A stretch of 33,538 nucleotides of DNA, from the NCBI GenBank assembly GCA_005888335.1, contig VAWY01000105.1, positions 1 to 33,538 on the forward strand. The letters are read 5' to 3'. The stretch is from Actinomycetota bacterium. GTDB lineage: Bacteria > Actinomycetota > Thermoleophilia > Solirubrobacterales > Solirubrobacteraceae. Under the pieces are notes generated by a model that did no database searches, was not told the DNA's origin, and saw only the letters and a program-made list of their open reading frames with translations. Position numbers and translations under genes: made by a program. This document shows, in pieces, positions 1,329 through 33,538 of this stretch (its first letter is position 1; each line of letters starts with the position of its first letter).

Positions 1329-1423
1329 AGGTGATCGCCCTGGCAGCCGCGGCCGGCGTCGGCGCCCTGGTCGTCAGCCAGCTGCCCGAGATCAAGCGCT
1401 ACCTGAAGATGGAGAGGATGTAG
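1325..1423 (+). CDS. 32-aa single-pass membrane microprotein (DUF6893-like)
   Basis: The ATG overlaps the upstream stop (ATGA) and is preceded by GAGAGGAG about 6 nt away. The stop TAG directly abuts the GTG of hypB. The peptide has a short hydrophobic Ala/Val/Leu segment (residues 3-18) and then a basic/amphipathic tail containing PEIKRYLKMERM. From memory, actinobacterial hydrogenase clusters carry tiny proteins of this kind, annotated as DUF6893; I could not check this. The tight packing and good ribosome binding site make it a real gene. It might anchor or stabilise a hydrogenase or maturation subunit at the membrane, which is inference. Confidence 0.75.
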   Translation: MKVIALAAAAGVGALVVSQLPEIKRYLKMERM

Positions 1424-2104: not shown

Positions 2105-3228
2105 GCCAGGTGGCGGCCGGCCGGCTCGACGAGCTGCTCGCCGCCCGCAGCGCCGCCAACGCGCGCTTCTTCGTGGACGAGGCCGAGCGGCTCGCGCGGC
2201 TGTGCCGGCTGATGGCCGAGCGCTTCCAGGCCGGCGGGCGCCTCGTCGCGCTCGGCGCCTCGCCCGTCGCGCGCTCGGATGCCCGCCACGTCGCCGTCGA
2301 GTTCGTGCATCCGGTGATCGTCGGCAAGCGAGCGCTGCCCGCGATCGCGGTCACGGCCGAGAGCGGCCCGGCGGAGCTGGTCGTGGCGCCGGGCGACATC
2401 GTCATGGCCTTCGACGGGCGCATCGCCGCTCCGCCGGGATGCCTGACGATCGCCTTCGCGCCCGACGCGGGCGCCGAGTGGGCCTTCGTGCCGCCCGGCG
2501 ACGACGCGTTCGTGCGCCAGGAGCTCGTCGAGACCGCCTACCACGTCCTGTGGGAGCTCGTGCACGTGTTCTTCGAGCACGCGTCGCGCAGCACGCCGGT
2601 CGGCGGGGAGGCGTCGTTCCTGTATCCGTTCCTCGCCGAGCGCGAGGACGACCTCGACGCCGTCGTGGAGGACGTGCGGCGGTCGGTGCTGATGAAGGCC
2701 GACGAGGTCGGCGCGCTGCGCGAGCAGACGCTCGGCGAGAACCGCGACGTCCTGCTCGCCGCGGCCGCCGACGTCCGGCAGGCGCTCGACGCCGGCGGCA
2801 CGCTGCTGGCCCTGGGCAACGGCGGCTCGGCGACCGACGCGATGGACGTGGTCGCCGACCTGCGCGCCGGCGGCCGGCGCGCGCTGGACCTGACCGAGGA
2901 CACGGGGATCATCACGGCGATCGCCAACGACATCGGGACCGAGGCGATCTTCGCGCGCCAGCTCATCGCGCTCGGGCGCGCCGGCGACGCGCTCCTGGCG
3001 CTGTCGACCAGCGGCAACTCGCCCAACGTGATCGCCGCGCTCGCCGAGGCGCGGCGGCGCGGCCTGGTGACCGTCGCGATGGTCGGCTACGGCGGCGGGC
3101 GCGTGGCCGCCGAGGGGCTGGCGGACCACGTCGTCGTGACGCGCTCGGAGCACATCCCGCGTATCCAGGAGGCGCAGGCGAGCGCCTACCACGTCCTGTG
3201 CGAGCTGGTCGAGGGCGATGGCGCTTGA
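2101..3228 (+). CDS. tandem SIS-domain protein (GmhA/phosphoheptose isomerase-like)
   Basis: A 375-aa protein built of two SIS (sugar isomerase) repeats. The C-terminal repeat (about 190-375) keeps the sedoheptulose-7-phosphate isomerase signature: LGNGGSATDA for phosphate binding, STSGNSPNV, and a final HIPRIQEAQASAYHVLCELVE. The N-terminal repeat (about 1-185) has the matching end, ETAYHVLWELVHVFFEH, but in place of the phosphate loop it reads LGASPVARSDARHV, so it is probably catalytically degenerate. GTG at 2101 overlaps the hypB stop, and its 3' end overlaps hypF by 11 bases, so it is an integral operon member. Its job in hydrogenase biogenesis is unclear; sugar-phosphate or nucleotide sensing is one possibility. 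Confidence 0.88.
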   Translation: MSQVAAGRLDELLAARSAANARFFVDEAERLARLCRLMAERFQAGGRLVALGASPVARSDARHVAVEFVHPVIVGKRALPAIAVTAESGPAELVVAPGDIVMAFDGRIAAPPGCLTIAFAPDAGAEWAFVPPGDDAFVRQELVETAYHVLWELVHVFFEHASRSTPVGGEASFLYPFLAEREDDLDAVVEDVRRSVLMKADEVGALREQTLGENRDVLLAAAADVRQALDAGGTLLALGNGGSATDAMDVVADLRAGGRRALDLTEDTGIITAIANDIGTEAIFARQLIALGRAGDALLALSTSGNSPNVIAALAEARRRGLVTVAMVGYGGGRVAAEGLADHVVVTRSEHIPRIQEAQASAYHVLCELVEGDGA

Positions 3229-5503: not shown

Positions 5504-6234
5504 TGCCCGGCGTCGATCACTGGCTCGCGGGGCTCGGCGACGGATCGCTCGTCCTCGCGGCGGTCGTGGCCGTGCTGCTCGGCCTGCGCCACGCGACCGA
5601 CCCCGACCACCTCACCGCGGTCGCCACGCTCATCGCCGGCGACGACCGCCACGGCGTGCGCCGCGCGCGGGCGCTCGGGTTCGCCTGGGGCGCGGGCCAC
5701 GCGCTGACGCTGTTCGCCTTCGGCGTGCCGGTGGTCCTCGTCGGCTCGGCGCTGCCCGAGGCCGCGCGGCGGGCCGCCGAGCTGGCCATCGGCGCCCTCA
5801 TCGTCGCCCTGGCCGTCCGCCTGCTCGTGCGCTGGCGCCGCGGCGCCTTCCACACGCACGTCCATACGCACGGCGACGTCCGCCACGCGCATCCGCACGC
5901 CCACGAGCACGCGCGCGGCCACGGCCCCGAGCACGAGCATGCCCACGCCGAGTCGCTGGGGCGCACGCCGCTGGTCGCCTTCGGCATCGGCCTGATCCAC
6001 GGCGCCGGCGGGTCCGCCGCGGCCGGCGTCCTGCTCGTGTCCGCCGCGAGCCGCGGCGCCGCGGGCATCGCCGCGCTGGGCTTGTTCGCGGCGGCCACGG
6101 CGTGCTCGATGGCGCTGGCCTCGGCGCTCTTCGGCCACGCGCTCGCGCGCGGCCGGCTCGTCGAGCGCCTGGTCCCGGCGCTTGGCGCGTTCAGCCTGCT
6201 CTTCGGCTGCTGGTACGCGCTCGGCTCCTTGTAG
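5503..6234 (+). CDS. nickel/cobalt permease, His-rich (NiCoT/UreH-HupE type)
   Basis: A 243-aa polytopic membrane protein with about six hydrophobic segments. Its signature GLRHATDPDHLTAV (27-40) carries the H-x2-D-x-D-H metal-selectivity motif, followed by WGAGHALTLF. A cytoplasmic-type loop (about 108-150) holds more than a dozen histidines (HTHVHTHGDVRHAHPHAHEH), consistent with nickel binding. ATG at 5503 overlaps the hypF stop. An in-frame GTG one codon earlier is an alternative. Its position at the end of the hyp operon indicates nickel import for the hydrogenase. Cobalt as a substrate, or export, cannot be excluded from sequence alone. Confidence 0.88.
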   Translation: MPGVDHWLAGLGDGSLVLAAVVAVLLGLRHATDPDHLTAVATLIAGDDRHGVRRARALGFAWGAGHALTLFAFGVPVVLVGSALPEAARRAAELAIGALIVALAVRLLVRWRRGAFHTHVHTHGDVRHAHPHAHEHARGHGPEHEHAHAESLGRTPLVAFGIGLIHGAGGSAAAGVLLVSAASRGAAGIAALGLFAAATACSMALASALFGHALARGRLVERLVPALGAFSLLFGCWYALGSL

Positions 6235-6292
6235 TCCAGATTTCCGGTGTTCAGGTTCGGTTCAGGGAACGCCCCTAGCGTCGCGGCTCGCC

Positions 6293-7201
6293 GTGACCTA
6301 CCTCCAGGCGATCGCCATCGCCCTCGTCCAGGGCGTCACCGAGCTGTTCCCGGTCTCGAGCCTCGGCCACTCCGTGCTCGTGCCGGCGTGGATCGGCGGC
6401 AGCTGGCAGACGCTCGTCACCCAGTCCTCGCAGGCCAGCAGCGAGACGTCGTTCTACCTGGCCTACATCGTCGCGCTGCACTGCGCGACGGCGGTGGCGC
6501 TGCTGTGGTTCTTCCGCGAGGACTGGGTGCGCATCGTCACCGGCTTCTTCCGCAGCCTGTCGCGCAGCGTGCGCGCCCGCCGGCTCGACACCAACGACGC
6601 CTACGAGCGCCTCGCCTGGCTGATCGTGCTCGCCACCATCCCGGTCGGCATCACCGGCCTCGCGCTCGAGCACGTCTTCCGCACCGTCTTCGCCAAGCCG
6701 CTCGCGGCGAGCATCTTCCTCGTCGTCAACGGGCTGATCCTGCTCGGCGGCGAGGCGGTCCGCCGCCGCGCGCCCGAGCCCCCGCCGCCGGCCACGGCGG
6801 TCGAGTCCGACCAGCGTGTCGCGCGGATGCCCTACCGCGACGGCGTCTACATCGGCTCCGCCCAGATCCTGGCCCTGTTCGCGGGCATCAGCCGCTCCGG
6901 CGTGACGATGGTCGCCGGGCTGATCCGCGCGCTCGGCCACGAGGATGCCGCGCGCTTTGCCTTCCTGCTCGCGACGCCGGTCATCTTCGCCGCCGGGGTG
7001 CTCAAGATCCCCAGCCTCTTCGGCGACGCCGGCGCCCATATCCACGGCCAGGTCGCGGTCGGTGTCGTGATCACCGGCGTGACCGCCTACCTGTCGGTCC
7101 GCTTCCTCGTGCGCTACTTCGAGACGAGGACGCTGACCCCGTTCGCGATCTACTGCCTGATCGCCGGGGCGGCCAGCGTCGTGCGCTTCGCCGTCGGGTG
7201 A
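6293..7201 (+). CDS. uppP: undecaprenyl-diphosphate phosphatase (UppP/BacA family)
   Basis: This integral membrane enzyme dephosphorylates undecaprenyl diphosphate to recycle the lipid carrier for peptidoglycan and other envelope polymers. The 302 aa contain the family motifs QGVTELFPVSSLGHS (13-27, with Glu17) and GISRSGVTM, plus about eight hydrophobic segments. I chose the GTG at 6293 because homologs begin just before YLQAIAIALVQG. Upstream in-frame sequence looks non-coding. No clear ribosome binding site precedes the GTG, so translation may be leaderless. A 58-bp gap separates it from the nickel permease, so it is probably not part of the hyp operon. Confidence 0.88.
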   Translation: MTYLQAIAIALVQGVTELFPVSSLGHSVLVPAWIGGSWQTLVTQSSQASSETSFYLAYIVALHCATAVALLWFFREDWVRIVTGFFRSLSRSVRARRLDTNDAYERLAWLIVLATIPVGITGLALEHVFRTVFAKPLAASIFLVVNGLILLGGEAVRRRAPEPPPPATAVESDQRVARMPYRDGVYIGSAQILALFAGISRSGVTMVAGLIRALGHEDAARFAFLLATPVIFAAGVLKIPSLFGDAGAHIHGQVAVGVVITGVTAYLSVRFLVRYFETRTLTPFAIYCLIAGAASVVRFAVG

Positions 7202-20462: not shown

Positions 20463-21713
20463 CTACGGCGCGGGAGCGGAAGGCGCGCCGGTTGGCGCGG
20501 GCCGGCCTGAGGCGTAGAACACGTCGAGCGTCGGGAACTCCGCGGTCGCCTGCAGGCAGGCCCACAGGTAGATCGCCAGGCCGAGATCGCCGGTCCAGAG
20601 GGAATGGCGCATGTGCCCGTGACGCGCGGCCTCGTCGTTGGTCTGTGCGATGCCGTGCATCGCGAACGCGCGGGCCCGCTCGAGCCAACGCGCATCGCCC
20701 GTGCGGCGATGGAGCTTCAAGAACGCATAGCCGTTGCCGGCGGTGCCGTGACACAGGCCCGAGCCCTTCTTGAGCGGTCCGGCCGCCCAGATCGTCTCGC
20801 CGGCGGCGATCAGCAGCGGATCGAGCTCGTCCCCGGGCATCTCCCCGAGGCAGACCACGAAGCCGGGCGCGCCATGGCAGAACTGGACGATCGGCACCGG
20901 CGGCGGCGCGTCCAGCAGGGGGCGCCAGTTCGCCTGTGAGCCTTCGCGCGTCGCGGTGCGGGCGATCGTCTCGGCGATGACCTGCTGCCAGGCCGCCCAG
21001 TCGGCGTCGCCGAGCAGGCGGCGCCCGCGGATCAGCGGCGACGCGGTCGCGACGAAGCCGTGCACCCCGTCGAGGTACGTGGTGCGCCGGCCGTAGAGGT
21101 CCTGCGTCCAGTAGCGGCAACGGTGGTCGGCCGACCATTCGAGCTGCGACCAGAGCGTCGCCGCGGTGTCCCGGAACAGCTCGGCCCAGCGCGCATCGCC
21201 AGTGCGCTCGTGCAGGAACAGCGCCGCCAGCATCGTGCCGGGTGCGCCCCACATCAGCTCGCGCGCCGGGTGGTCGCGGTTGCCGGAGATCAGCGCCGCG
21301 AGGCGGTCGGCGCGCGCTTCGGTCGGCCCGCGGCCGTAGGCCATCATCTCGATGGGCGTGTCGCCCATCAGGTACGAGGCCGACTCGTGGCCGAAGCCGT
21401 TCGCTCCCAGCCACTCGCGGTTTGCGGCGAGCAGCGCGTCGAGGTGGGGAAGCGGGTCGTGCGACAGGCGCGCCGCGCCGATCGCCCGCAGGTGGTCGAG
21501 GGCCCACGCGACGCCGGCGGCGCCGAAGTAGAGCGTGGTTGAAGGAACGTCCGCATCGCCGGGTTCGACATCGCGCCGATGCACCGGCCACCAGGTCCGC
21601 TCGGAGAGGTGCGCTTCGGTGTCGCGCACGATGCGCTCGATGGCGCCCTGCGCGCGGTCAGGGTCCCAGTCGATCGCCTGCGGCGCCTCGTGGCGGGCGG
21701 GGTCGTAGAGCAT
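20463..21713 (-). CDS. stand-alone lanthionine synthetase C-like (LanC/LANCL) protein
   Basis: A 416-aa alpha/alpha-barrel protein of the LanC family. The zinc-site motifs are present: FCHGAPGF with Cys279, and LCHGTAGNGYA with Cys321-His322. Other repeats of the fold (YFGAAGVAWAL, LMWGAPGTMLAALFL, YLDGVHGFVATA) are clear. The ATG at 21713 has AGGTGA upstream. No LanB, LanM or precursor peptide lies nearby. It therefore resembles the LANCL-type proteins that add glutathione to dehydroamino acids rather than a lantibiotic cyclase. It sits 6 nt after an NmrA-like gene and 12 nt before a secreted hydrolase, an apparent three-gene operon. Confidence 0.88.
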   Translation of the reverse strand: MLYDPARHEAPQAIDWDPDRAQGAIERIVRDTEAHLSERTWWPVHRRDVEPGDADVPSTTLYFGAAGVAWALDHLRAIGAARLSHDPLPHLDALLAANREWLGANGFGHESASYLMGDTPIEMMAYGRGPTEARADRLAALISGNRDHPARELMWGAPGTMLAALFLHERTGDARWAELFRDTAATLWSQLEWSADHRCRYWTQDLYGRRTTYLDGVHGFVATASPLIRGRRLLGDADWAAWQQVIAETIARTATREGSQANWRPLLDAPPPVPIVQFCHGAPGFVVCLGEMPGDELDPLLIAAGETIWAAGPLKKGSGLCHGTAGNGYAFLKLHRRTGDARWLERARAFAMHGIAQTNDEAARHGHMRHSLWTGDLGLAIYLWACLQATAEFPTLDVFYASGRPAPTGAPSAPAP

Positions 21714-23465: not shown

Positions 23466-23662
23466 GATTGATCAACATCTCCTTCCTGATGAGCGGGTGG
23501 GGTCAGAAAGGGGTGGCGGCGCCCGGGCGCCGCCGCCAAGCCGAGAGGGGGTGGGCGGCCAAGCTGCGCCCTCGCCTTGGGCGCGTAGCGCTCAGGCGGC
23601 CCGCCTCCCGGTTGAAGGAGCGCGCGTCTAGCGTCAGCCAGGCACGGCGACCATGCTATGTG

Positions 23663-23691
23663 TTGACGTCTCTTATGCGCGCATATAATAT
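23663..23691 (+). promoter_or_regulatory. sigma70-like promoter of the SRPBCC-MarR pair, leaderless
   Basis: TTGACG (23663-23668), 17-bp spacer, TAATAT (23686-23691). A start site 7 nt after the -10 box falls on the A of the ATG at 23698, so the mRNA is probably leaderless, in line with no ribosome binding site. Confidence 0.7.
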
Positions 23692-23699
23692 GTGCGCAT
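23675..23699. promoter_or_regulatory. 25-bp near-perfect palindromic operator
   Basis: Arms ATGCGCGCATAT and ATATGTGCGCAT around a central A match at 11 of 12 pairs. The palindrome covers the -10 box, the predicted start site and the first two bases of the ATG. MarR or PadR regulators bind such sites; the adjacent MarR gene is the best candidate. Confidence 0.65.
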
Positions 23700-24126
23700 G
23701 ACTTCTCCTTTCACATACACCCATACGGTCGAGGCTGAGGTCACGGCGGAGGCGATTTGGTCGCTCTACGACGACGTCGCGACGTGGCCCAGCTGGGACG
23801 CGCAGGCCGAGTTCGTCACGCGTGATGGGCCGTTCGCGGCAGGCGCGACCGGCACGATGAAGTTCGTCGGCCAGGAACCGCTGCACTACCGCCTTGCGAA
23901 GGTCGACCCGCTGCGTGAGTTCGTCGACGAGACGCCGGTCGGCGAGCTCGTCGTCCGCGTCGCGCACCAGCTCGAGCCGCTGCCCTCCGGACGGCTGCGG
24001 ATCACCTACTCGGCGCAGATCGACGGGCCCGACGCTCAGGCTCAGCAGATCGGGCCGATGATCACAGCCGACTTCCCTGACACGATCGCGTCGCTGATCG
24101 CGCTCGCCAAGGAGCGCACCCCATAG
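23698..24126 (+). CDS. SRPBCC-family (polyketide cyclase/START-like) protein
   Basis: A 142-aa START-like fold protein: YTHTVEAEVTAEAIWSLYDDVATWPSWD at the N-terminus is the classical SRPBCC opening, then beta-strands with GTMKFVG and a C-terminal helix (DTIASLIALAKERTP). These proteins bind small hydrophobic ligands and can act as hydrolases or ligand carriers. The ATG at 23698 fits the predicted leaderless transcript; GTG 23692 is an alternative. The last codons contain the AAGGAG that should serve the next gene, a MarR regulator, so the pair is coupled. Confidence 0.87.
   Translation: MTSPFTYTHTVEAEVTAEAIWSLYDDVATWPSWDAQAEFVTRDGPFAAGATGTMKFVGQEPLHYRLAKVDPLREFVDETPVGELVVRVAHQLEPLPSGRLRITYSAQIDGPDAQAQQIGPMITADFPDTIASLIALAKERTP
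24109..24125 (+). promoter_or_regulatory. ribosome binding site in front of an ATA start
   Basis: AAGGAG (24109-24114) is placed 8 nt before ATA (24123-24125). The ATA overlaps the SRPBCC stop as ATAG, the same geometry as the ATGA overlaps elsewhere in this window. No ATG, GTG or TTG is available in frame until 24252, too far downstream. Confidence 0.6.
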
Positions 24127-24587
24127 GCCCGCCGCGACCAAGCTCGCGATTCCAGGCGCCAGAGCAGAGCCCCGGCTTTCTGCTCTGGCGCGCCACCCTG
24201 GCGTGGCAGCGAAGGATCCGCGCGGCGCTGACGCCGCACGATCTGACGCATGTGCAGTTCGTGCTGCTGGCGTCGCTGTGGTGGTTGGAGGACCACGGCC
24301 ACCTGCCGCCCACCCAAGCCAGACTCGCCGAGCAGGCCGGAACCGATCCGATGATGACCAGCCAGGTGATACGCAAGCTCGAGTCGCGCGGCCTGCTCCA
24401 GCGAGCGCCCAACCCCACCGACAGCAGGGCGCGACAGCTGCGATTGACCCCCGCCGGCCGCGCGCTCGTGGCGGCCGCGCTCACCGATGTCGAAGCGGCC
24501 GACGCCGACTACTTCGCTGCGCTCGGCAACCGTCACGACGCGTTCGTCGAGGCGCTCAACGCGGTATGCGCCGCAGGACGGGCCTAG
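24123..24587 (+). CDS. MarR-family regulator with a probable ATA start codon
   Basis: The conserved MarR core (THVQFVLLASLWWLEDHG, MTSQVIRKLESRGLLQRAPNPTDSRARQLRLTPAGR) extends in frame upstream of the first usual start (GTG 24252) through a well-formed N-terminal helix, FQAPEQSPGFLLWRATLAWQ. That helix is normal for this subfamily and completes the dimer interface. The upstream frame is open back to a stop at 24078 but has no ATG, GTG or TTG. ATA at 24123, with AAGGAG 8 nt before it, gives 154 aa, the usual length. It likely represses its own operon through the 23675-23699 palindrome. CTG at 24180 is a less likely alternative start. Confidence 0.8.
   Translation: MGPPRPSSRFQAPEQSPGFLLWRATLAWQRRIRAALTPHDLTHVQFVLLASLWWLEDHGHLPPTQARLAEQAGTDPMMTSQVIRKLESRGLLQRAPNPTDSRARQLRLTPAGRALVAAALTDVEAADADYFAALGNRHDAFVEALNAVCAAGRA
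24156..24191 (+). repeat. perfect 13-bp hairpin within the MarR 5' coding region
   Basis: GCGCCAGAGCAGA (24156-24168) and its exact reverse complement (24179-24191) enclose a 10-nt loop. It lies about 30 nt after the proposed ATA start, so it could pause ribosomes or set the SRPBCC:MarR ratio. Coding constraint may also explain it. Confidence 0.5.
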
Positions 24588-24607
24588 GGAGTCCCTGGGT
24601 ACGAGCG

Positions 24608-25348
24608 TCAGCCCGCCCGCATGACCTGCTGCGTACGCGCGTAGCAGGCGTGCACGCCGCGCTTGAACCCGTAGGCGACCCAGGCGCCGCGCAGCTTGGA
24701 TGACCCGTGCGCGTCCGGGTCGTCAATCCGCGTGCCGGGCGGGTCCCCGATCTGCCGGATCGCCCACGCCGCCTCTTGGACATCGCCGACGTCGGCCTGG
24801 CCAGAGGTGTAGAGGTTGCGAAGCCAGGCTCCGGCGAAGCAGTCGGCCTCCAGCTCGGCGAAGATGTTCAGGCGGAAGCGCTGGCCGAGCTGGTCCTGGA
24901 TCGCGTGCCCCCACTCGTGCGCGAGGACGAAGCCGACCGCCATGTCTCCCGCCTTCTCGTAGTACGGGCGCGTGAGATTCGTCTCGTCCCACGTGATGAA
25001 CCGGCCGGGGAAGCAGTACTCCGCGTTGCCCGGTTCGATCGCCTCGCCGCCGCACGTCACGCCGGTGGTCTCGTAGCCGGGTTGGAGCCCCGGAGAGACA
25101 TAGCCGCGGACGCGCTGACGCCAGAAGCCGTCGATCGAGGCGATGAGCGCCGGGACGCGCTGCTCGTACGGCGGCTCGCCGGCCGGAGCGAGGGCGCGCG
25201 GCGGGGCGGCCAGCGGCAGCTGCGCCGCGCGGGCCGACGCCGTCGTCAGGCCGACGAGCGCCAGGAGACAGCCGAGAAGGAGCCCGGCGACGGCGGCCCG
25301 GAAGGCGGGCCGGGCGGTCGTGACGGGCGGGGTATGGAGATCGTTCAT
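24608..25348 (-). CDS. secreted neutral zinc metallopeptidase (YpfJ-like)
   Basis: A 246-aa exported protein with a long signal peptide or anchor (residues 15-42). The zincin motif HEWGH is at 144-148, and the downstream family motif AELEADCFAGAW (164-175) supplies the third ligand. The Cys in that motif and others (TCGGEAIEPGNAEYCFPG) are typical of the YpfJ/putative neutral zinc metallopeptidase family (PF04228). Its ATG is 6 nt from a GACGTA -10 box, so the transcript is probably leaderless. Its promoter is the mirror twin of the one driving the STAS/sigma/CHAT operon, which implies co-regulation. The substrate is unknown. Confidence 0.9.
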   Translation of the reverse strand: MNDLHTPPVTTARPAFRAAVAGLLLGCLLALVGLTTASARAAQLPLAAPPRALAPAGEPPYEQRVPALIASIDGFWRQRVRGYVSPGLQPGYETTGVTCGGEAIEPGNAEYCFPGRFITWDETNLTRPYYEKAGDMAVGFVLAHEWGHAIQDQLGQRFRLNIFAELEADCFAGAWLRNLYTSGQADVGDVQEAAWAIRQIGDPPGTRIDDPDAHGSSKLRGAWVAYGFKRGVHACYARTQQVMRAG

Positions 25349-25354
25349 GCCCGT

Positions 25355-25385
25355 TACGTCACGTCCGGCGGCCTGCCACCTGACA
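25355..25385 (-). promoter_or_regulatory. TGTCAG-N19-GACGTA promoter, pair 1 leftward
   Basis: TGTCAG (25385-25380) and GACGTA (25360-25355) on the minus strand, 19 nt apart; the metallopeptidase ATG follows after 6 nt. Matches the three other promoters in this region. Confidence 0.7.
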
Positions 25386-25414
25386 GGCGTCTCGACGGGA
25401 TTGCGTCAAGCCGC

Positions 25415-25445
25415 TGTCAGGTCCAGATGCCCAAGGCGAGACGTA
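25415..25445 (+). promoter_or_regulatory. TGTCAG-N19-GACGTA promoter, pair 1 rightward
   Basis: TGTCAG (25415-25420) and GACGTA (25440-25445), 19 nt apart, 6 nt before the ATG at 25452. It drives the five-gene operon that includes the sigma factor, so autoregulation is plausible. Confidence 0.7.
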
Positions 25446-25451
25446 CACGGC

Positions 25452-25640
25452 ATGAACCACTTCTTCTCGCAGCCGCGCCGCGCTCGCGGCACCGCGGAGC
25501 CCATTCACACCGTGGCGGACGCGTTCGGCGACATCGCCGCCGCCGCCGATGACGCCGTCTGGTCGGTTCGCCTCGCGGGACTGTTCGAGGACCTCGAACG
25601 CGAGGCGGCACGCGCGACCGGCGGAGGGCTCCGCTCATGA
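25452..25640 (+). CDS. 62-aa small protein, first gene of the sigma/CHAT operon
   Basis: The ATG is 6 nt after the -10 box and the stop overlaps the next gene's ATG (ATGA), so it is a real, coupled gene. The N-terminus is basic (FFSQPRRARG) and the rest is an acidic amphipathic helix (TVADAFGDIAAAADDAVWSVRLAGLFEDLEREAARATGGG). There is no signal peptide, no membrane segment and no Cys. Family unknown. It could be a small regulatory partner or a CHAT protease substrate; both are guesses. Confidence 0.72.
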   Translation: MNHFFSQPRRARGTAEPIHTVADAFGDIAAAADDAVWSVRLAGLFEDLEREAARATGGGLRS

Positions 25641-26410
25641 TGAGCCCGGAATTCGAGCTTGCCGAGGACATGTTCGACGGGCGGACGCGGCTGATCGTCG
25701 TCGGCGGCAAGGTCGACGCCGCCGGCGTGGAGCGCGTCGTTGCCGCTGCCGTTCAGGCCCCAGGCCGGCGTCTCGTCGTCGACCTGGCCGACGCGGCGAT
25801 CGGGTCTCCGGAGCTCGTGGCGCTGCTGGACGGGCTCGAGGAGGTCCGTGCCGGCGGCCGGGTCCTTGTCGTCTCACCGGACGAAGTCCTCGCCGACCTC
25901 GCAGCGGTGGTGACCGTGAGCGGCGTCGTCGAGGTCGTCACCTCGCACCCGGACGCGTACATCGCGTTGCTGCTCGACGATCTGCTCGAAGCCGGCCGGA
26001 CCTCCGCCAACCCCCCAGGCAACGTTGCGTGGCGGATACCGGTGCGCCTTCGGAGCCTCGACGGCGTCGCGGAGGTGCAGGTGTGCGACTGGGCCGGCGG
26101 CGTGCGGTTGATCGGCACGTCCGCACGGTGGGAGGCGCGACTGTACGGCTCGCCACCGGGAAACGGCGCCGTCACCTCCGATCGGGACGGCGACCGCGAG
26201 CTGTGCCTGGCGTACGCCTACGCCGCTCCAGCGGTCGTCCTGCTGCTGGTCGTCATGCACGGCGACACCGAGCTCGCCGCGATCGACGCGCACCTCGTGA
26301 GGGAGGTGGACGTCGCCGTGATCGAGGACCCGAGCGGCGACGCGCTGTCCACCGGGACGCTCGCGGCGCGTGTCGCCATCGACGCGCCACCACCGGCGAG
26401 CGATCCCTAG
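25637..26410 (+). CDS. STAS-domain protein with unknown C-terminal domain
   Basis: A 257-aa protein. Residues about 10-110 follow the STAS (anti-sigma-antagonist) pattern: RTRLIVVGGKVDAAGVERVVAAAV, then RRLVVDLADAAIGSPELVALLDGL, where the Ser of IGSPEL occupies the phospho-acceptor region, and GGRVLVVSPDEVLADLA. The C-terminal 140 residues (VAWRIPVRLRSLDGVAEVQV onward) are beta-rich and not recognised; they may sense a ligand. It overlaps the 62-aa gene by 4 bases. Together with STAS domains on both CHAT proteins it points to a partner-switching circuit. Confidence 0.72.
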   Translation: MMSPEFELAEDMFDGRTRLIVVGGKVDAAGVERVVAAAVQAPGRRLVVDLADAAIGSPELVALLDGLEEVRAGGRVLVVSPDEVLADLAAVVTVSGVVEVVTSHPDAYIALLLDDLLEAGRTSANPPGNVAWRIPVRLRSLDGVAEVQVCDWAGGVRLIGTSARWEARLYGSPPGNGAVTSDRDGDRELCLAYAYAAPAVVLLLVVMHGDTELAAIDAHLVREVDVAVIEDPSGDALSTGTLAARVAIDAPPPASDP

Positions 26411-26463
26411 CGAGCAGCGCGGCTTGCGCTCGGCAAGCGATGCCAGGACACTGGACCGCGAGG

Positions 26464-27063
26464 ATGACTGATCCGGACCGCATTCTGAGCGAGTTCATCG
26501 ACGCTTGGACGGCCGGTCAGCAACCCGAGCCCATGGACTACATCGAGCGGGCGCCCGCCGACGCCCGCGACGCGCTCGCCGACGAGATCGCGACCTACCT
26601 CGCGCACGCCCCCACGCCGGACTACTCGGCCGACGTCCTCGCGGAGCTGATGGCCGATCCCGCGGTGGTGGAGCTGTCCAACGCGATCGAGAGCGATCAC
26701 GGGCTGTGGCCAACGCTCCTGCCTCGGCTGCGCCGGCGCGCGTCGCTGGACCGGGCCGAGCTGGCGGCGCGCCTCGCGGCGGGGCTCGGCATCGAGGGGC
26801 GCGAGGCCGACACGGAGAAGTACCTCGCGGAGATGGAGCAGGGGACGCTCGACCCGCGCGGCGTCTCGCAGCGCGCCCTCAACGCCCTCGGACGCATCCT
26901 CGGCGTCGGAGGTCAGGCCCTGGCGCGCGCCGGCGACTTCCAGCTCTTCAACGAGCCCGCGCTCTCCGGTGTGACGCTCCACGGCGAGCCGCGCGACGAG
27001 GTCGACATTCTGTTTCGAGGCGGACGTGAGCAATCAGGCGAGGACGGACACGAGCCCGTGTAG
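26464..27063 (+). CDS. XRE-like helix-turn-helix protein, candidate sigma partner
   Basis: A 199-aa protein. Its N-terminus (DRILSEFIDAWTAGQQPEPMDYIERAP) matches the short helical motif seen at the start of many actinobacterial sigma-associated and kinase-like regulators. The centre (about 88-150) is HTH/XRE-like: LDRAELAARLAAGLGIE, EKYLAEMEQGTLDP, VSQRALNALGRILGV. The C-terminus is acidic. It lies 53 nt after the STAS gene and 15 nt before the sigma gene. I infer an anti-sigma or co-regulator role. ATG 26464 is preferred to ATG 26440; neither has a clear ribosome binding site. Confidence 0.7.
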   Translation: MTDPDRILSEFIDAWTAGQQPEPMDYIERAPADARDALADEIATYLAHAPTPDYSADVLAELMADPAVVELSNAIESDHGLWPTLLPRLRRRASLDRAELAARLAAGLGIEGREADTEKYLAEMEQGTLDPRGVSQRALNALGRILGVGGQALARAGDFQLFNEPALSGVTLHGEPRDEVDILFRGGREQSGEDGHEPV

Positions 27064-27078
27064 CGACATGAGGTCAGC

Positions 27079-27846
27079 TTGCGATCCGGCGGTGTGAAGC
27101 GGCCCGGCGGGGACGCCGCGGACGAGCGGAGCTCCAAGGCCGCCGCCGCAACGAGACCTCTGCCGTCGGCGCGGAGGCTGAGCGACAAGCACCTCAGGGC
27201 CATCCCGGAGCACGAGTACGGGTTCTTGGGCTCCGAGGAGCTCTGGCGTCTGATGATCATCGGGCGGCGGAGCCGCTACGCGCACGACAACAAGCACGCC
27301 AAGGCCGCCGCGCGCATGCTGGTCGCGCGGGAGATGCCGCGCGTGCGCGCCTTGGTTGCGACCTTCCGCTTCCCGGACAGGCCATGGGTGCGCATCGATC
27401 GCGAGGACCGCGACGAGCTTGCACAACTGGCCTTCATCGAGCTGCTCGAGCTGCTCGAGGACTTCCGGGGCGACAAGCTCGTCCAGTTCTACAGCGCCAT
27501 TCGCACGTGCGTCGGCTACGTCTGCATGCGCTTCCTCTCACGCCAGGCGAAGAGCCGGAGCCGCGAGGCGCCGGACCCCGACGCGATCGAGCGGGCCGCC
27601 GAGCAGGCCCACCGCGACGAGATCGAGGAGATCGACGAGACCGACGCCGTCGAGCAGACGATCGCCGCGATCCCCTGGGAGGGCCCACGTGACGTGATGC
27701 ACCTCAGCGTGCTGGAGCAGCTCAGCTCGGAACAGATCGGCCAACGGCTCGGGATGAAGGCCAACACCGTCGACGTGTACCGCCGCCGCGGACGCGATTG
27801 GCTGCTCGAGAACCATCCCGAGATGCGCCGACGGATCGCCCGCTGA
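27079..27846 (+). CDS. sigma-70-family RNA polymerase sigma factor
   Basis: A 255-aa ECF-like sigma factor. Region 2 (about 75-155) includes AKAAARMLVAREMPRVRALVATF, DRDELAQLAFIELLELLEDF and FYSAIRTCVGYVCMRFL. Region 4 (about 190-245) ends in a helix-turn-helix, LSSEQIGQRLGMKANTVDVY. Residues 1-45 are an unusual basic, low-complexity extension. The TTG at 27079 has GAGG 5 nt upstream; GTG 27094 is an alternative. Located between the XRE-like and CHAT-STAS genes. It is the natural candidate to read the four TGTCAG-N19-GACRTA promoters around it, including its own. Confidence 0.82.
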   Translation: MRSGGVKRPGGDAADERSSKAAAATRPLPSARRLSDKHLRAIPEHEYGFLGSEELWRLMIIGRRSRYAHDNKHAKAAARMLVAREMPRVRALVATFRFPDRPWVRIDREDRDELAQLAFIELLELLEDFRGDKLVQFYSAIRTCVGYVCMRFLSRQAKSRSREAPDPDAIERAAEQAHRDEIEEIDETDAVEQTIAAIPWEGPRDVMHLSVLEQLSSEQIGQRLGMKANTVDVYRRRGRDWLLENHPEMRRRIAR

Positions 27847-27867
27847 CCGCGCCAGCCACGGTGTGCG

Positions 27868-29388
27868 GTGCCCGGCTACGACGAACTCCACCTGCGATTC
27901 CAGCGATCCGGCGAAGGAGCCTATGCCGTCGCGGCCGAGTCACCGGCGGGCGACGGACAAGGCCTCTTCGAGCCGCCCTTCAGCGACGAGGCGCTCGAGA
28001 ACTTCGTCCTCAAGCTGTCGCTGCGCAAGGCCGGCGTCCTGGGCTTCGACACCGTTCAGGTCGACCGGGTCAAGCGCTTCGGCGCCGTCCTCTTCGCCGC
28101 GCTGTTCCGGGGCGAGATCGGCGACCTGTACCGCGCCTCGCGGGCGCGGGCCGACCGCGCCGGGAGGGCGCTGCGCATCATCTTGCACCTCGCCGAGGCG
28201 CCCGCACTGGCGGGTGTTCCCTGGGAGTACCTCTTCGACGATCCCGACTTCCCCGCCCTCTCGAGGTGGACGCCCGTGATCCGGAAGCTCGAGGTGCCGA
28301 ACTTCCGCAGACCGGCGAGGATCAAGCCGCCGCTCCGCGTCCTCGGCATGGTCAGCAGCCCGCCCGATCACGAGCCGCTGAGCCGTCACGACGAGCAGGC
28401 GGGTCTCGAGGGCGCCTTGGGCGAGGTGCGCGACATGGGATTGGTCGAGATCGAATGGTGCGAGTCGGCCACGCTCGCCGGCCTTCACGACAGGCTCGAA
28501 GAGGGGCACTTCCACGTCTTCCACTACGTCGGCCACGGGAGCTATGACCTCGCGGCCGACGACGGCGTCCTGTTCCTCGAGCGGCCTGACGGCAGCCAGC
28601 CCGTCAGCGCCATGCAGCTGGGCACGATGCTCCGCGAGGACAGGGACCTGCGCCTGGCCGTGCTCAGCGCCTGTCAAGGCGCACGCATGTCGCGCGACGA
28701 CCCTTTCGCCGGCGTGGCCGCCGGGCTGGTCCGGCGAAGCATGCCGGCGGTGGTGGCCATGCAGTTCGACATCACCATGACGGCCGCGCGCGTGTTCACG
28801 CATCACTTCTACAAGAGCCTCGCCCGCGGCCACCCCGTCGACACGGCCGTGGCGAAGGGCCGCCAGGGCGTCTACGCATCGGGCAACGAGCTCGAGTGGG
28901 GAACTCCCGTGCTCTTCCTCCAGGTGCGGGATGGTCGCCTCTTCGACATCCGGTGGAGGGAGGGGCGCGACGCGAGGCTGCGCGACGCGTTGGAACGGGC
29001 GTCCGACGCGCTGCCCGAGGACGGCGGTCGCGTCCCCGTGGCAGCTGGCAGGTTCGCCCTGAGCGTCGAGGCGATCTCCGAAGGCGTCGAGCTGATCGCC
29101 GTGCGCGGCGAGGTTGACCTCTACACCGCGATGGAGCTCAGAGCGGCGGCCATGGCCTCGAGCGCGCCGTGCCTCGTGATCGACCTGTCGGAGGTGACGT
29201 TCCTCGACTCGACGGCGCTGGGCGTCTTCACAAGCGCGGAGAAGCGTCAGCGGGGGCGCGGGGGTGAGCTGCGGCTCGTCGTGCCGGAGGAGAACGCGAG
29301 CCTGAGGCTGACGTTCGAGATCACCGGACACGACGAGGTCCACGCCATCTATCCGTCTCGGTCGGCGGCGCTCGAGGCCGGCCGGTAG
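27868..29388 (+). CDS. CHAT (caspase-like) protease fused to STAS domain
   Basis: A 506-aa cytoplasmic protein. The N-terminal 110 residues are a conserved lead domain shared with the paralog downstream. The CHAT domain (about 115-355) carries the caspase-clan dyad: His223 in FHYVGHG and Cys269 in LSACQGA, followed by AVVAMQFDI and GTPVLFLQV. A linker leads to a STAS domain (about 398-503) with phospho-acceptor-like FLDSTALGV (445-453). CHAT proteins are proteases in conflict and signalling systems. STAS fusion suggests that activity is gated by partner switching. GTG at 27868 is the only start in frame. Last gene of the operon. Confidence 0.9.
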   Translation: MPGYDELHLRFQRSGEGAYAVAAESPAGDGQGLFEPPFSDEALENFVLKLSLRKAGVLGFDTVQVDRVKRFGAVLFAALFRGEIGDLYRASRARADRAGRALRIILHLAEAPALAGVPWEYLFDDPDFPALSRWTPVIRKLEVPNFRRPARIKPPLRVLGMVSSPPDHEPLSRHDEQAGLEGALGEVRDMGLVEIEWCESATLAGLHDRLEEGHFHVFHYVGHGSYDLAADDGVLFLERPDGSQPVSAMQLGTMLREDRDLRLAVLSACQGARMSRDDPFAGVAAGLVRRSMPAVVAMQFDITMTAARVFTHHFYKSLARGHPVDTAVAKGRQGVYASGNELEWGTPVLFLQVRDGRLFDIRWREGRDARLRDALERASDALPEDGGRVPVAAGRFALSVEAISEGVELIAVRGEVDLYTAMELRAAAMASSAPCLVIDLSEVTFLDSTALGVFTSAEKRQRGRGGELRLVVPEENASLRLTFEITGHDEVHAIYPSRSAALEAGR

Positions 29389-29389
29389 C

Positions 29390-31621
29390 TCAGCGGGCTC
29401 GCGGCAGGCCTTCCCGCGCCGCCGCTGTCGAGCGATACACGTCAATGAGCTGCTCGACCCCGGGGATGCGGAACATCCTCGAGAGCCGGTGGCCGGCGAC
29501 GATACGGAGGTCGCCCCCCGCGTGGCGTTGCCGGTGCGTCGCAGAGACGATGAAGTCCAAGGCAGTCGAATCGAGGTTCTCGACGTCGGACATGTCGATG
29601 ATCACGCATGTGGCGTCGCCGGGAGCGGCGTCCTCCAGCTCGGTCTTGAGCTCGATGGCCTTCCCCAGATCGATGGCGCCGTGCAGAGCGATCACGTGCG
29701 GCTCTTCCCCGGTCGGCTCGAAGGCGCGCACGACGAGGACCGACATGTCGCGCTGCGGGTCGGCACCGTCCTCGCAGAGCGCTGTCGCGAGGCGCGCTCC
29801 GGTCTGTCCGTCGGGTCCCCTCCTCGCACGCTCCAGCAGTCGTGCGATGTTGGACTCGCGCGCGCCGGTCCGACCGTAGACGTCCTGGGTGCAGAGGACG
29901 AGCGCGTCGCCCGCGTCGAGCTTGACGGACTGATCGACCGGACCGCCGTTGCCGTCGAGCTCGCCGGAGCCGCGAGACGTCACGAGCCCATGCACGGATC
30001 CGTCGGCGCGCACCAGCAGCGGACGCGGACCGGGCGTGGCCCACGGGTACCAGGCCGGCGGCGGGCCGCCCCAGGCGAGCTCCGCTTCGGTTGTCGCCTG
30101 TGTTCGAACGAGCGCGCACGCCACGCTCCAGGTGCCGTCGGTCGGACTCGAGAGCACGAGCGCGCGGTTGACGGCACCGAGGAGCTCATGCGCGCGACAG
30201 CCGGTCGACGCAGCCGTTCGGACGGCGCCCTCCGCCTGGGCCTTGGCATCCTCGTGCTCGGCGGCCATGCCCGAGAGCTGCCCGACGACGATCGCGCACT
30301 CGGACGCGCCCCTCTGCACGACGACGTGAAAGTCCGTCCCCAGGTCGCCTACCGCGCTCCCCGCTCGATGGACGCACGCCAGCTCCACGCCCGTGAGCTG
30401 GGGCAGCGCGACCGGACGCGCGGCGCCGGTCGCCGGTGCGCCGTGCGGTTCCTTGCGCTCGCGGACGGCGACCGGCCGGACGGGGGACTTCTGGACGATC
30501 TCCCGTGGAGATCGCCATCTGTCGTCGAAGATGCGGCCGTCCGCGACCTGCAGGAAGAGCACCGGCGTCGCCCATTCGACGCCGCCGTTGCAGTAGGCGT
30601 GGATGGCGAGGCGGCCGTAGACGACCGCTGTGTCGACCTGATTGCCCTCCGCCAGAGCCTTGTAGAAGTGCTCGGTGAACTCGCCTGCCGCCTCGACCTT
30701 GATGTCGAACTGCATCGCGACGACCGCCGGCATGCTGCGCCGGACGAGCGCCGCCGCGACGCCGGCGAACGGGTCCTCGCGGGCCGCGCGAGCGCCCTCG
30801 CAGGCGTTCAAGACGGTGAGGCGCAGCTGAGGGCCCTGTTCGCGGAGGATCAGCCCGAGCTTCCTGCCCGTGACCCGATCGCTGTTTCCCCCGGGCCCCT
30901 CGAAGAGCAGCACCCCGTCCTCCGCGGCGGCGTCATAGGCGCCGTGACCGCAGTAGTGGAAGACATGGAAGGAGCGGCCGGAGAGCCGCCGGTTGAGCTC
31001 GCGCAGCGTTGCCGTCTCACACCACTCGACCTCGACGAGCCCGTCGTCGAGCAGGTCGCGCAACGCGTCCTCGAGCCGGCCCCGTTGCTCGGGGACGTCC
31101 AGCTGCTCGTGGTCCGCCGGGCTGCTCACCATGCCGAGGACGCGGAGCGGCGGCTGCTTGATCTTCAGGACGGGCCGTGGGTCGGGCACGGCAAGCTTCC
31201 GGGTGATCGGCGTCTGGACACCGAGCGCCAGGGGGTCGGCATGGTGGCCGTCGAACAGGTACTCCCACGGGATGTTGGCCAGCGCCGGCGCGCCCGCGAG
31301 CTCCAGCGTGATGCGCAGCCCCTTGCGAGCCTTGTCGGCGCGCGTACGCGAGTCCCGGTACAGCTGACGGACCTCACCCTGGAACAGTGCCTCGAACAGC
31401 TCGCGCCCGAAGTCCTCCGCCTGCTGCTCCCGGACCGTCTCGAGGCCGAGCCTTCCGCTCGGCTGCCCCGCCATCCTCAGAACGAAGAGCTCGATCTTGT
31501 CGTCGCTGAACGGCAGGCGGAACGTGCCTTCGCTCGATCCCACCGGCGACCGCGCGGCCACGACGTAGTTCCCGCTCGCCGAACACTCGAGCCGAAGCTG
31601 CAGTTCGTCGTATTTGAGCAA
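29390..31621 (-). CDS. CHAT protease - degenerate PP2C/SpoIIE-like - STAS fusion
   Basis: About 743 aa, paralogous to the CHAT-STAS protein over residues 1-370, with the dyad His226 (FHYCGHG) and Cys274 (LNACEGA). A SpoIIE/PP2C-like domain follows (about 405-632), but metal-binding motifs look eroded: the usual DVSGHG reads GQLSGMA and the usual TDG reads TQD, so it may bind rather than dephosphorylate partners. A STAS domain with NLDSTALDF closes the protein. The TTG start at 31621 aligns exactly with the paralog's start (M-x-x-YDEL). It lies 142 nt after the secreted-protein gene and is probably driven by the promoter at 32953-32923. Confidence 0.88.
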   Translation of the reverse strand: MLKYDELQLRLECSASGNYVVAARSPVGSSEGTFRLPFSDDKIELFVLRMAGQPSGRLGLETVREQQAEDFGRELFEALFQGEVRQLYRDSRTRADKARKGLRITLELAGAPALANIPWEYLFDGHHADPLALGVQTPITRKLAVPDPRPVLKIKQPPLRVLGMVSSPADHEQLDVPEQRGRLEDALRDLLDDGLVEVEWCETATLRELNRRLSGRSFHVFHYCGHGAYDAAAEDGVLLFEGPGGNSDRVTGRKLGLILREQGPQLRLTVLNACEGARAAREDPFAGVAAALVRRSMPAVVAMQFDIKVEAAGEFTEHFYKALAEGNQVDTAVVYGRLAIHAYCNGGVEWATPVLFLQVADGRIFDDRWRSPREIVQKSPVRPVAVRERKEPHGAPATGAARPVALPQLTGVELACVHRAGSAVGDLGTDFHVVVQRGASECAIVVGQLSGMAAEHEDAKAQAEGAVRTAASTGCRAHELLGAVNRALVLSSPTDGTWSVACALVRTQATTEAELAWGGPPPAWYPWATPGPRPLLVRADGSVHGLVTSRGSGELDGNGGPVDQSVKLDAGDALVLCTQDVYGRTGARESNIARLLERARRGPDGQTGARLATALCEDGADPQRDMSVLVVRAFEPTGEEPHVIALHGAIDLGKAIELKTELEDAAPGDATCVIIDMSDVENLDSTALDFIVSATHRQRHAGGDLRIVAGHRLSRMFRIPGVEQLIDVYRSTAAAREGLPRAR

Positions 31622-31763
31622 TGGACCCGCCGTCGTCCGTGCGTGGCGCGGATCGCCGGCGCGGGCCCGGGTTGGCGGCCCCGCATCCGGCTCAGCCAAC
31701 CGTACGCCCCCGGAGAGGCGAACGCCAGTCGAGCCGGCTGCGGGTTCAGCGCGAGAGAATCGC

Positions 31764-32915
31764 TCAGCGCCAGGCCGTGAGGATGGCGACGAAGCCCTCG
31801 CGCGCCGCGTAGCGGCTGCCGACGTCGCCGTCGCTTCTCGGCTCGCCGGCGCGGATCCTCCAGGTCCCGTGCGCGCGGTCGACGTGGCCGAACAGCCAGA
31901 GCTGCCGGCGGCTCGACGGCGAAGCGCAGACGTAGTTGAGCCGCCGTCCCGCGCCGTCGACCATCGACGCACCCTGCTGCAGGAGGCACCGCTGGCCGTT
32001 GGCGAGGCGCATGGCCCAGGGAACCCGTGGATCGGCGTTCGAGGCTGCCCGGACCTCGGGGTCGTGATCGAGGTGCAGCCGGATGACCGTGTGGGCCCAC
32101 GGGTCGTCTGCGCACACGACGCTCGGATCGTTGGGATCGAGACCGCCGGGCGGCTCGAAGCAAGGGTCGTGGATGTAGTTGCCGGCCATGCACCGGAAGG
32201 CGCGATGCGCGACCGTCGCCTCAGGTGTCGTCCAGCACTGGCCGTGGCGCCGCACGATCTTCAGGCCCGGGCGGACGGAGCCGTCCTGCGCGAACGGCCA
32301 GTAGGTGATCAGGCGGGTCGTCGCGGCGCGCGCCGCTGAGCCGCCCCCGGGCGCCTTCGACGCGTCGACGAGCCGGAAGCTGCGCGTGAACGCGTGGCCC
32401 GTCCAACGCAGCGTGCCGACCTTCAGTCGCGAGGGACAGCAGTTGGCATCGCCGGACGCGTACTTCGGCTCCGTCGTGATCAGACGCGTGCCGTCGCCCT
32501 CGAGCTTGAACGTCGGGTCGTGCAGGCGCGCGTACGCGACGCGCCACGTCTCTCCGCGACGGCGAAGGACCGCCCACGGCGCGGGCGACGAGACGGTGCA
32601 GCACTGGTAGAGCACGGCGCGATCGGTCTGGCCGTCACCGTCGAAGTCGCCGCACAGCGAGGTCGCCGGGCGCTTGTACGTCTCGCTCGGCTTCGCCGAG
32701 CCGAACGCGCGGCGCAGGACCGGGTCGGCATCGAGCGCCTGCGCGAGCCCGGCGGCGCGGGCCGCGGCGTCGCCTGCCGCCTTCGAGCAGCGCGTCCACG
32801 GCGTTGGGTGTGCGCCATCAGCGGGTGCGGAGGTCGCGCTGATGCCGATCAGCCCCAGGAGCGGGATGAGCAGAAGTGCGGCGACGGTGTGGAGGTTGGG
32901 ATGGAAGTGGCTCAT
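31764..32915 (-). CDS. secreted Cys-rich protein with a Ca-binding-like loop
   Basis: A 383-aa exported protein: N-terminal hydrophobic signal (VAALLLIPLLGLIGISATSA), then a mature region with about ten Cys. A DFDGDGQTD segment (90-98) looks like a calcium loop of the FG-GAP or EF-hand type. A C-terminal half resembles a beta-trefoil/lectin-like sequence (CLLQQGASMVDGAGRRLNYVCASPSSRRQLW is its core; identity uncertain). ATG 32915 lies 7 nt from a GACGTA -10 box. It precedes the CHAT-PP2C-STAS gene on the same strand and may be an envelope sensor or effector, which is inference. Confidence 0.75.
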   Translation of the reverse strand: MSHFHPNLHTVAALLLIPLLGLIGISATSAPADGAHPTPWTRCSKAAGDAAARAAGLAQALDADPVLRRAFGSAKPSETYKRPATSLCGDFDGDGQTDRAVLYQCCTVSSPAPWAVLRRRGETWRVAYARLHDPTFKLEGDGTRLITTEPKYASGDANCCPSRLKVGTLRWTGHAFTRSFRLVDASKAPGGGSAARAATTRLITYWPFAQDGSVRPGLKIVRRHGQCWTTPEATVAHRAFRCMAGNYIHDPCFEPPGGLDPNDPSVVCADDPWAHTVIRLHLDHDPEVRAASNADPRVPWAMRLANGQRCLLQQGASMVDGAGRRLNYVCASPSSRRQLWLFGHVDRAHGTWRIRAGEPRSDGDVGSRYAAREGFVAILTAWR

Positions 32916-32922
32916 GCCTTAC

Positions 32923-32953
32923 TACGTCACGCCCAGCGCTGGGCAATCTGACA
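32923..32953 (-). promoter_or_regulatory. TGTCAG-N19-GACGTA promoter, pair 2 leftward
   Basis: TGTCAG (32953-32948) and GACGTA (32928-32923), 19 nt apart, 7 nt before the ATG at 32915. Drives the secreted protein and probably the CHAT-PP2C-STAS gene. Confidence 0.7.
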
Positions 32954-32981
32954 CCGTCGCTGTCGGACTCGCTTGAAGAGC

Positions 32982-33012
32982 TGTCAGATCCGCGGCGGCC
33001 CCGCGAGACATA
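32982..33012 (+). promoter_or_regulatory. TGTCAG-N19-GACATA promoter, pair 2 rightward
   Basis: TGTCAG (32982-32987) and GACATA (33007-33012), 19 nt apart, 6 nt before an ATG at 33019. The only one of the four with A in the fourth position of the -10 box. Confidence 0.65.
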
Positions 33013-33018
33013 GAGGGC

Positions 33019-33123
33019 ATGGACAACCACACGCCCCTCGCTGCGCGCCGCCTTCCTCGCGCCGCGCTCATGTTCGTCGGCTCCATTGGGGTCTCCACCG
33101 GTCGCGCCGTGAGCCAGAGCTAG
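33019..33123 (+). CDS. 34-aa small protein behind the fourth shared promoter
   Basis: ATG 33019 is placed 6 nt after GACATA, exactly as for the 62-aa gene at the other promoter pair. The peptide starts MDNHTPLAARRLPRAA and continues with a short hydrophobic stretch (LMFVGSIGV), ending before TAG at 33121-33123. It may be a small membrane or exported peptide. The next gene starts 3 nt later. Reality rests on the promoter geometry. Confidence 0.5.
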   Translation: MDNHTPLAARRLPRAALMFVGSIGVSTGRAVSQS

Positions 33124-33126
33124 CCC

Positions 33127-33363
33127 GTGCGAAGCAACTTGATCGCTGCCGTCGCCGCCGTGGCGACGCTCGCCGCGCCTGCCTCTGCACGCGCAGACGT
33201 GACGGTCTACGACGCGATCCCGGGCGAGTACAGCGTCACCGTCACGATCTGCCGGGCGGGCGTCCCTCAGGGGCCAGCCTGTTCGAGTGCCACGGGGCCC
33301 GCCGTCACCGCGCCTTTATCCGCCACCGTCATCCCCGTCACCAAGGAGAGACCCCGTGAGTGA
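33127..33363 (+). CDS. small secreted protein, unknown
   Basis: A 78-aa protein from GTG 33127 with a clear signal peptide (LIAAVAAVATLAAPASARAD) and a short mature part of about 53 residues with two Cys (TICRAG, PACSSA) and beta-rich composition (VTVYDAIPGEYSVTV). It overlaps the next gene by 8 bases and follows the 34-aa gene by 3 nt, so all three are probably expressed from the promoter at 32982-33012. No family recognised. Confidence 0.65.
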   Translation: MRSNLIAAVAAVATLAAPASARADVTVYDAIPGEYSVTVTICRAGVPQGPACSSATGPAVTAPLSATVIPVTKERPRE

Positions 33364-33538
33364 GCTGCGCCCGTTCAGCGTGCAGATGTTCGAGGAGTAC
33401 GCGTGCGCCCGCGAGTACCCCTACCTCGTCGACAGCGAGGGCAACTACCTGATCCGCTTCCGCGCCGACGACGACGTGCCCGCGCTGGACTGCTGGTTCA
33501 GGAGCGATGCCAACGGAGATGTCGCAACGATCGCGTTC
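33356..33538 (+). CDS. start of a gene cut by the window edge (possibly YbjN-like)
   Basis: GTG at 33356 has a strong AAGGAG 7 nt upstream. The frame stays open to the last base, giving 61 residues. The visible part is acidic with EEYACAREYPYLVDSEGNYL and DCWFRSDANGDVATI, which weakly recalls the YbjN/type-III chaperone-like fold. That identification is tentative. It belongs to the rightward transcript of promoter pair 2. Confidence 0.6.
   Translation, partial: MSELRPFSVQMFEEYACAREYPYLVDSEGNYLIRFRADDDVPALDCWFRSDANGDVATIAF

Follow-up and report, generated by a model that had tools for sequence, protein, structure and literature searches.

A putative sigma factor and XRE-type regulon island with CHAT-STAS proteins in a Solirubrobacteraceae contig, and its relatives in Thermoleophilia

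In published accounts, the XRE repressors CapH and DdrO are cut by M78-type proteases (PMC10904395, PMC7593790). Work on type III-E CASP describes Csx29 as the releasing protease for Csx30 and CASP-sigma, with sigma motifs placed within the locus (PMC10028731). Here we analyzed a stretch of 33,538 nucleotides (positions 1 to 33,538 of contig VAWY01000105.1, assembly GCA_005888335.1; hereafter the window, meaning this whole stretch) from an Actinomycetota bacterium of the family Solirubrobacteraceae, class Thermoleophilia, in which one island brings together genes for an extracytoplasmic function (ECF)-like sigma factor, an XRE-like protein and two proteins (A and B) that combine CHAT and STAS domains. 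The gene content and the four mirror-image promoters given in a preliminary description of this DNA were confirmed. We consider it likely that the island is a local regulon run by a dedicated ECF-like sigma factor and a helix-turn-helix (HTH, XRE-type) partner, gated by a protease, with the CHAT proteins as its induced effectors.

Like CapH-CapP of the cyclic oligonucleotide-based antiphage signalling system (CBASS) and DdrO-IrrE (PprI, Deinococcus), relatives of the island combine an XRE-type HTH protein with an M78 metallopeptidase and share some defence or DNA-repair cargo, and the window's XRE-like protein has a matching HTH fold. Unlike in these two pairs, the module has a dedicated sigma factor as its third conserved member, its XRE protein is extended by an additional N-terminal domain and a C-terminal tail, and the window holds no M78 match and hence no such protease adjacent to the XRE gene, whereas its relatives do carry M78. 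With type III-E CASP (Csx29, a TPR-CHAT protein, together with Csx30 and CASP-sigma), the window has in common a CHAT protease, an ECF-like sigma factor, a candidate inhibitor and sigma motifs within the locus. However, its sigma factor reaches 15.2 bits against the type III-E sigma model NF041236 (cutoff 100), and its CHAT proteins, unlike Csx29, carry STAS and have no TPR family match. Pfam scans of 30 window proteins showed no Cas family, and the 20 repeat families listed for 23600-33538, of at least 60, included none with even spacing. SigB/SigF modules share STAS and SpoIIE-like domains with the window, but here no anti-sigma kinase was detected and the sigma factor is ECF-like.

The sigma factor, its XRE-like partner and the M78 peptidase of relatives

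The sigma factor of the window matched TIGR02937 (57.5 bits, cutoff 42.9) and Sigma70_r4_2 (27.7 bits, cutoff 25.7), with region 2 remaining under the Pfam cutoff (17.7 bits, cutoff 24), and scored 14.5 bits against the SigBFG model (cutoff 234). By these profiles it looks ECF-like and not SigB/F-like. Only two relatives of it were retrieved in a word-based search of 5.8 billion proteins, and the same search gave 250 matches, itself included, for the XRE protein. The latter (199 aa) has no Pfam match of its own; its designation as XRE-like was borne out by fold matches to the HTH domains of CapH, SinR and DdrO. Members of its family are built from a conserved N-terminal helical domain, the HTH (about 79-156) and a C-terminal DEVDxLFxGGR tail. 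This tail is strongly conserved across the family, the window included, and sigma contact, degradation tag and protease site are its candidate roles.

Of 399 Thermoleophilia genomes, at least 104 contain the XRE family, by a search that scored 7 candidates per genome, so that absences are not proof. From roughly 110 XRE places in this search, 60 were taken with flanks. Altogether 67 relative neighbourhoods (844 kb) were fetched and annotated by our own gene calling, 60 of them with a called XRE gene; those without one (L060, L067, L072, L075, L077, L082 and L094) were left out of the synteny count. A related sigma gene, often overlapping the XRE gene by a few bases, lies directly upstream of it in 55 of the 57 loci with enough sequence (the exceptions are L059 and L086), and an M78 metallopeptidase gene follows at most three genes downstream in 50 of the 53 loci with readable flanks. 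The remaining three also have M78, either in an uncalled frame right after the XRE gene (L071), as the fourth gene (L081), or at a distance of about 10 kb along the contig (L057), meaning that this ImmA/IrrE-type enzyme is present in 53/53 such islands. The conserved unit in Thermoleophilia is sigma factor, XRE protein and M78 peptidase, a putative class-wide regulator of which no description was found in the literature searched. In L081, a second, shorter XRE-family frame (6145-6558, 137 aa) lies in the island beside the complete module.

In the window, too, the XRE gene adjoins a related sigma gene on one strand, with three departures from the module of its relatives: the order is reversed, the XRE gene preceding that of the sigma factor; CHAT and STAS genes are present; and M78 was not found within the 33.5 kb (best six-frame E 0.83). 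As about 6.5 kb of contig remain to the right of the XRE gene, a loss of M78 is unproved. In a midpoint-rooted XRE tree, the window groups with the metagenome proteins P0005-P0010, and the fork joining its branch to the M78-opposite branch has a support of 93/84. Every locus with readable flanks in the window's clade has M78, which was therefore probably ancestral.

A shared promoter and its cargo

Exactly four perfect matches to TGTCAG-N16-CGWGAC occur in the window, two per divergent region and none elsewhere, in agreement with the mirror-image shared promoters reported before; start codons follow 9-10 nt after the GAC. For a related pattern with two window matches, 0 were expected in shuffles. 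When two mismatches were allowed in TGTCAG-N16-CGWGAC, 6 sites were found vs. 7.5 expected, which is chance level, so only perfect matches are counted. In each of the two divergent regions the start codons are separated by exactly 103 bp, and between the regions only 46 of these 103 bases agree, which argues that the layout was kept while the filler drifted. The minus-strand promoter at 32953 leads to a 383-aa gene, behind which, after 142 nt on this strand, the gene of protein B begins; together with the promoter of the sigma operon, this allows both CHAT genes to be transcribed from promoters of this set. The site at 25358-25385 (-) precedes the zinc peptidase gene, and the rightward site of region 2 (32982-33009) precedes genes running off the contig.

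Among relatives, TGTCAG-N17-CGAC stands upstream of the sigma gene in 21 of 55 cases (none in shuffles). By comparison, it precedes 0 of the 59 XRE genes and 26 of the 652 other genes in these loci. In many of them the sigma gene and neighbouring cargo share TGTCAG-N15/17-C(GA)GAC close to the start codons, so the transcripts are probably leaderless, and since the promoter precedes the sigma factor's own gene, the switch is probably self-amplifying. At the genome level the motif is rare but concentrated at the locus: G303, G359, G367 and G160 have 32 sites, 14 of them no more than 10 kb from one of their five XRE genes, or 9 of 27 if the sigma promoters are left out. Counts reached 170 sites vs. 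30 in a backward control in 26 XRE-bearing genomes (mainly high-scoring ones among the 104) and 51 vs. 41 in 16 genomes without detected family (drawn from 295), for a motif definition that drew partly on loci later counted. A set of ten genomes gave 48 vs. 17 in the seven with XRE and 9 vs. 9 in the three without. The enrichment in XRE genomes and the clustering at the locus tie the motif to this sigma family, and thereby would link the four promoters of the window to its own sigma factor. Because relatives of the sigma factor carry a near-identical promoter before their own and neighbouring genes, it is likely that the window's sigma is dedicated and fires the four promoters, as had been proposed.

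The promoter-led cargo differs between genomes, and several of its genes have no known family. In L057 (8754-13371, genome G375), a TGTCAG-N17-CGAC site beside the sigma-XRE pair is followed 11 nt later by the start of a ZacABC defence operon; on the other side of this locus, ARPP-1-like and AddAB-like genes (the AddAB likeness judged by eye) were seen. Also among the cargo are RmuC, a large helicase-nuclease (L044), a NurA-like gene with a weakly HerA-like gene behind it, ARPP-1, vWA and TPR proteins and, 174 nt from a site, HsdM, and an ADP-ribosylglycohydrolase is found near motif sites in L138. The cargo thus looks partly defence and DNA repair, and would fit a DNA-damage or infection alarm. 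In L136, L137 (G104) and L138 (G099), this promoter forms clusters at a distance from the XRE gene; they precede vWA genes, among others, have TPR proteins and an ADP-ribosylglycohydrolase nearby, and are possibly second regulon islands.

The CHAT-STAS proteins and the layout of the island

Two CHAT proteins with His/Cys dyads, each ending in a STAS domain, had been described for the window, and Pfam matches agree. The motifs HYVGHG (from 219) and SACQGA (from 267) in protein A, and HYCGHG (222) and NACEGA (272) in protein B, give Cys269 and Cys274, respectively, and this region can be aligned to 8tl0, a CHAT protein of solved structure. With a CHAT domain and His/Cys catalytic motifs in each, A and B are both predicted proteases. 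A SpoIIE-like stretch is also present in protein B (27.7 bits, cutoff 25; 3.1e-06), in which metal-binding Asp residues of the SpoIIE motif look, by eye, substituted. The STAS domains of both proteins contain a DST motif, the serine of which is presumably the STAS phosphosite.

CHAT-STAS fusions are rare, accounting for 3 among 120 listed of 606 CHAT matches: two are the window's own pair or near copies, and the third is P0127 (49% over 99%). The listed matches carry varied C-terminal domains, and those without STAS share 44-53% identity with CHAT A over 67-82% of its length. Neither CHAT (profile and six-frame search of the 67 relative loci, 844 kb) nor STAS (among their called proteins) was found. 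In a class search that scored three candidates per genome, absences again not being proof, four genomes gave matches to the CHAT part of protein A, in loci (L132-L135) without a sigma or XRE match, two of which are only 4 kb long. The co-occurrence check suggested in the preliminary description, which named rare neighbourhood as a refuting outcome, therefore refutes a conserved pairing of CHAT with the sigma factor, but not the window's own arrangement; a second genome with this arrangement was not found. Relatives of the window's CHAT proteins include genes with variable C-termini, some of them adjoining small Trypco1 proteins (L132:1466-4078, L134:7117-7290). The window's proteins differ from these in having STAS as their C-terminal domain, and no Trypco1 match was obtained among the island proteins scanned with Pfam.

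The genes and sites of the island, based on gene calls and Pfam/NCBIfam scans of window proteins, are listed in Table 1. They form two convergent runs, one encoding the 62-aa, STAS-like, XRE, sigma and CHAT-STAS proteins, the other the 383-aa and CHAT-SpoIIE-STAS proteins. The third STAS protein of the preliminary description (257 aa) was upheld in part: the N-terminal ~105 residues fit a STAS profile derived from STAS proteins of other genomes (28 bits; 6e-10 in a set of 7 proteins, 7e-8 among 843; hhalign 92%), and the Pfam scan gave no match. The 62-aa protein, previously put forward as a sigma inhibitor, has neither a Pfam or PHROGs match nor a relative in the relatives' loci, which leaves that role unsupported. 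The zinc metallopeptidase, also named before and recovered here, has a hydrophobic, signal-like N-terminus (by eye). Outside the island, hydrogenase maturation genes (HycI-like protease, HypB-like, HypF and a NicO-like transporter) occupy the left end of the window (531-6231), and a LanC-like protein is encoded at 20463-21713.

Table 1 Features of the island, in positions of the window
Feature	Position	Strand	Basis or remark
Zinc metallopeptidase, Zn_peptidase PF04228	24608-25348	-	Pfam 5e-15
Divergent promoter region 1	25349-25451	both strands	sites 25358-25385 (-), 25415-25442 (+)
62-aa protein, first gene of sigma operon	25452-25640	+	gene call
257-aa protein, STAS-like N-terminal domain	25637-26410	+	profile match, no Pfam
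199-aa XRE-like protein	26464-27063	+	family alignment and fold match
ECF-like sigma factor	27079 (TTG) or 27094 (GTG) to 27846	+	TIGR02937, Sigma70_r4_2
CHAT-STAS protein A	27868-29388	+	Pfam CHAT 1.7e-20, STAS 2.3e-11
CHAT-SpoIIE-like-STAS protein B	29390-31621	-	Pfam 5.9e-24, 3.1e-06, 9.2e-11
383-aa protein, signal-like N-terminus (by eye)	31764-32915	-	upstream of protein B, same strand
Divergent promoter region 2	32916-33018	both strands	sites 32926-32953 (-), 32982-33009 (+)
34-aa open frame, ATG 9 nt after promoter GAC	33019-33123	+	not among called genes
78-aa frame, signal-like start	33127-33363	+	not among called genes
Gene cut by contig end	33356-33538	+	no Pfam match

Candidate mechanism, alternatives and meaning

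By analogy with DdrO/IrrE, CapH/CapP and Csx30/CASP-sigma, the XRE protein would keep the sigma factor inactive until a protease cleaves it, whereupon the freed sigma would read and fire its own promoters; the CHAT proteins would then be made as effectors that, under stress or when phages attack, cut proteins of the cell or of the operon. The island may thus act as an inducible stress or anti-phage defence. Some observations weigh against the tie between the motif and this sigma family: the exact motif is absent from 34 of 55 sigma upstreams, G104 has no motif site beside its XRE gene, and the spacing from TGTCAG to GAC is 19 in the window vs. 18 in relatives. The window also reads CGWGAC where relatives read CGAC, and CGAGAC recurs in L064 and L073. 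If the shared motif belonged to another, genome-wide sigma factor and the adjacent sigma gene were incidental, the many sites away from XRE loci, with clusters in G104 and G099, would be accounted for; the enrichment over the backward control in XRE genomes, hardly seen where the family was not found, and the clustering of the motif at the XRE locus make this improbable. Partner switching as in SigB/SigF, in which STAS binds or releases an anti-sigma kinase and is dephosphorylated by the SpoIIE-like domain, was part of the preliminary description and could draw on the STAS ends of both CHAT proteins with their DST motif and on the SpoIIE-like stretch of protein B. We regard it as very improbable, given that no HATPase kinase domain occurs in the 30 Pfam-scanned window proteins (five called genes at 11.8-18.2 kb lie outside the scan, and the contig is partial), the sigma factor falls far below the SigBFG cutoff, the SpoIIE metal-binding positions look substituted, and STAS was not matched among the called proteins of the 67 relative loci.

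The dedicated sigma factor with its XRE-type partner can be gated in more than one way. That a protease acts on the XRE protein, as had been suggested, is a reasonable idea with M78 as the usual third partner of the module, but CHAT, the protease originally assigned to this task, is not a conserved partner. The CHAT proteins could be cargo only, with the sigma factor triggered by an M78 peptidase encoded beyond the contig or at another place in the genome, or by another signal, and then expressing them as effectors. We lean slightly towards this possibility: in relatives the promoter leads to variable cargo, once the ZacABC defence operon, both CHAT genes of the window follow sigma-type promoters, and the four other CHAT loci of the class lack a sigma or XRE match, two of them having a Trypco1 gene; on the other hand, no M78 gene was seen in the window and CHAT occurs in no other sigma-XRE locus examined. 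Alternatively, CHAT-STAS may have replaced M78 as the XRE-cleaving protease that frees the sigma factor, in a CRISPR-free parallel of Csx29-Csx30-CASP-sigma. This would be consistent with the presence of M78 in all relatives with readable flanks, the nesting of the window's XRE branch among M78 carriers (midpoint-rooted), the lack of M78 in the 33.5 kb, the start of CHAT A 21 nt after the sigma gene and a published precedent for CHAT release of a sigma factor (PMC10028731). Nevertheless, such a replacement is rather unlikely, as the contig ends so near the XRE gene and M78 is 10 kb away in one relative, no second genome with the arrangement was found, and CHAT could simply be cargo. A shade more doubtful still is the full circuit in which the CHAT-STAS proteins take the seat of M78, cut the XRE-type partner, free the sigma factor and are themselves induced by it.

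Two ways of switching on immunity or repair are already known, the control of XRE repressors by proteases and the release of sigma factors by proteases, and here both appear joined in one class-wide module. The readable promoter points to the targets of this module, by which its trigger, substrate and cargo become directly testable, and TGTCAG-N15/17-C(GA)GAC beside a sigma-XRE pair offers a search key for new defence-like genes. The window may offer a natural test of whether, within one and the same circuit, a metalloprotease can give way to a caspase-like protease; if true, the replacement would be a caspase-gated transcription alarm, without CRISPR and parallel to type III-E CASP, set atop the sigma-XRE-M78 regulator.

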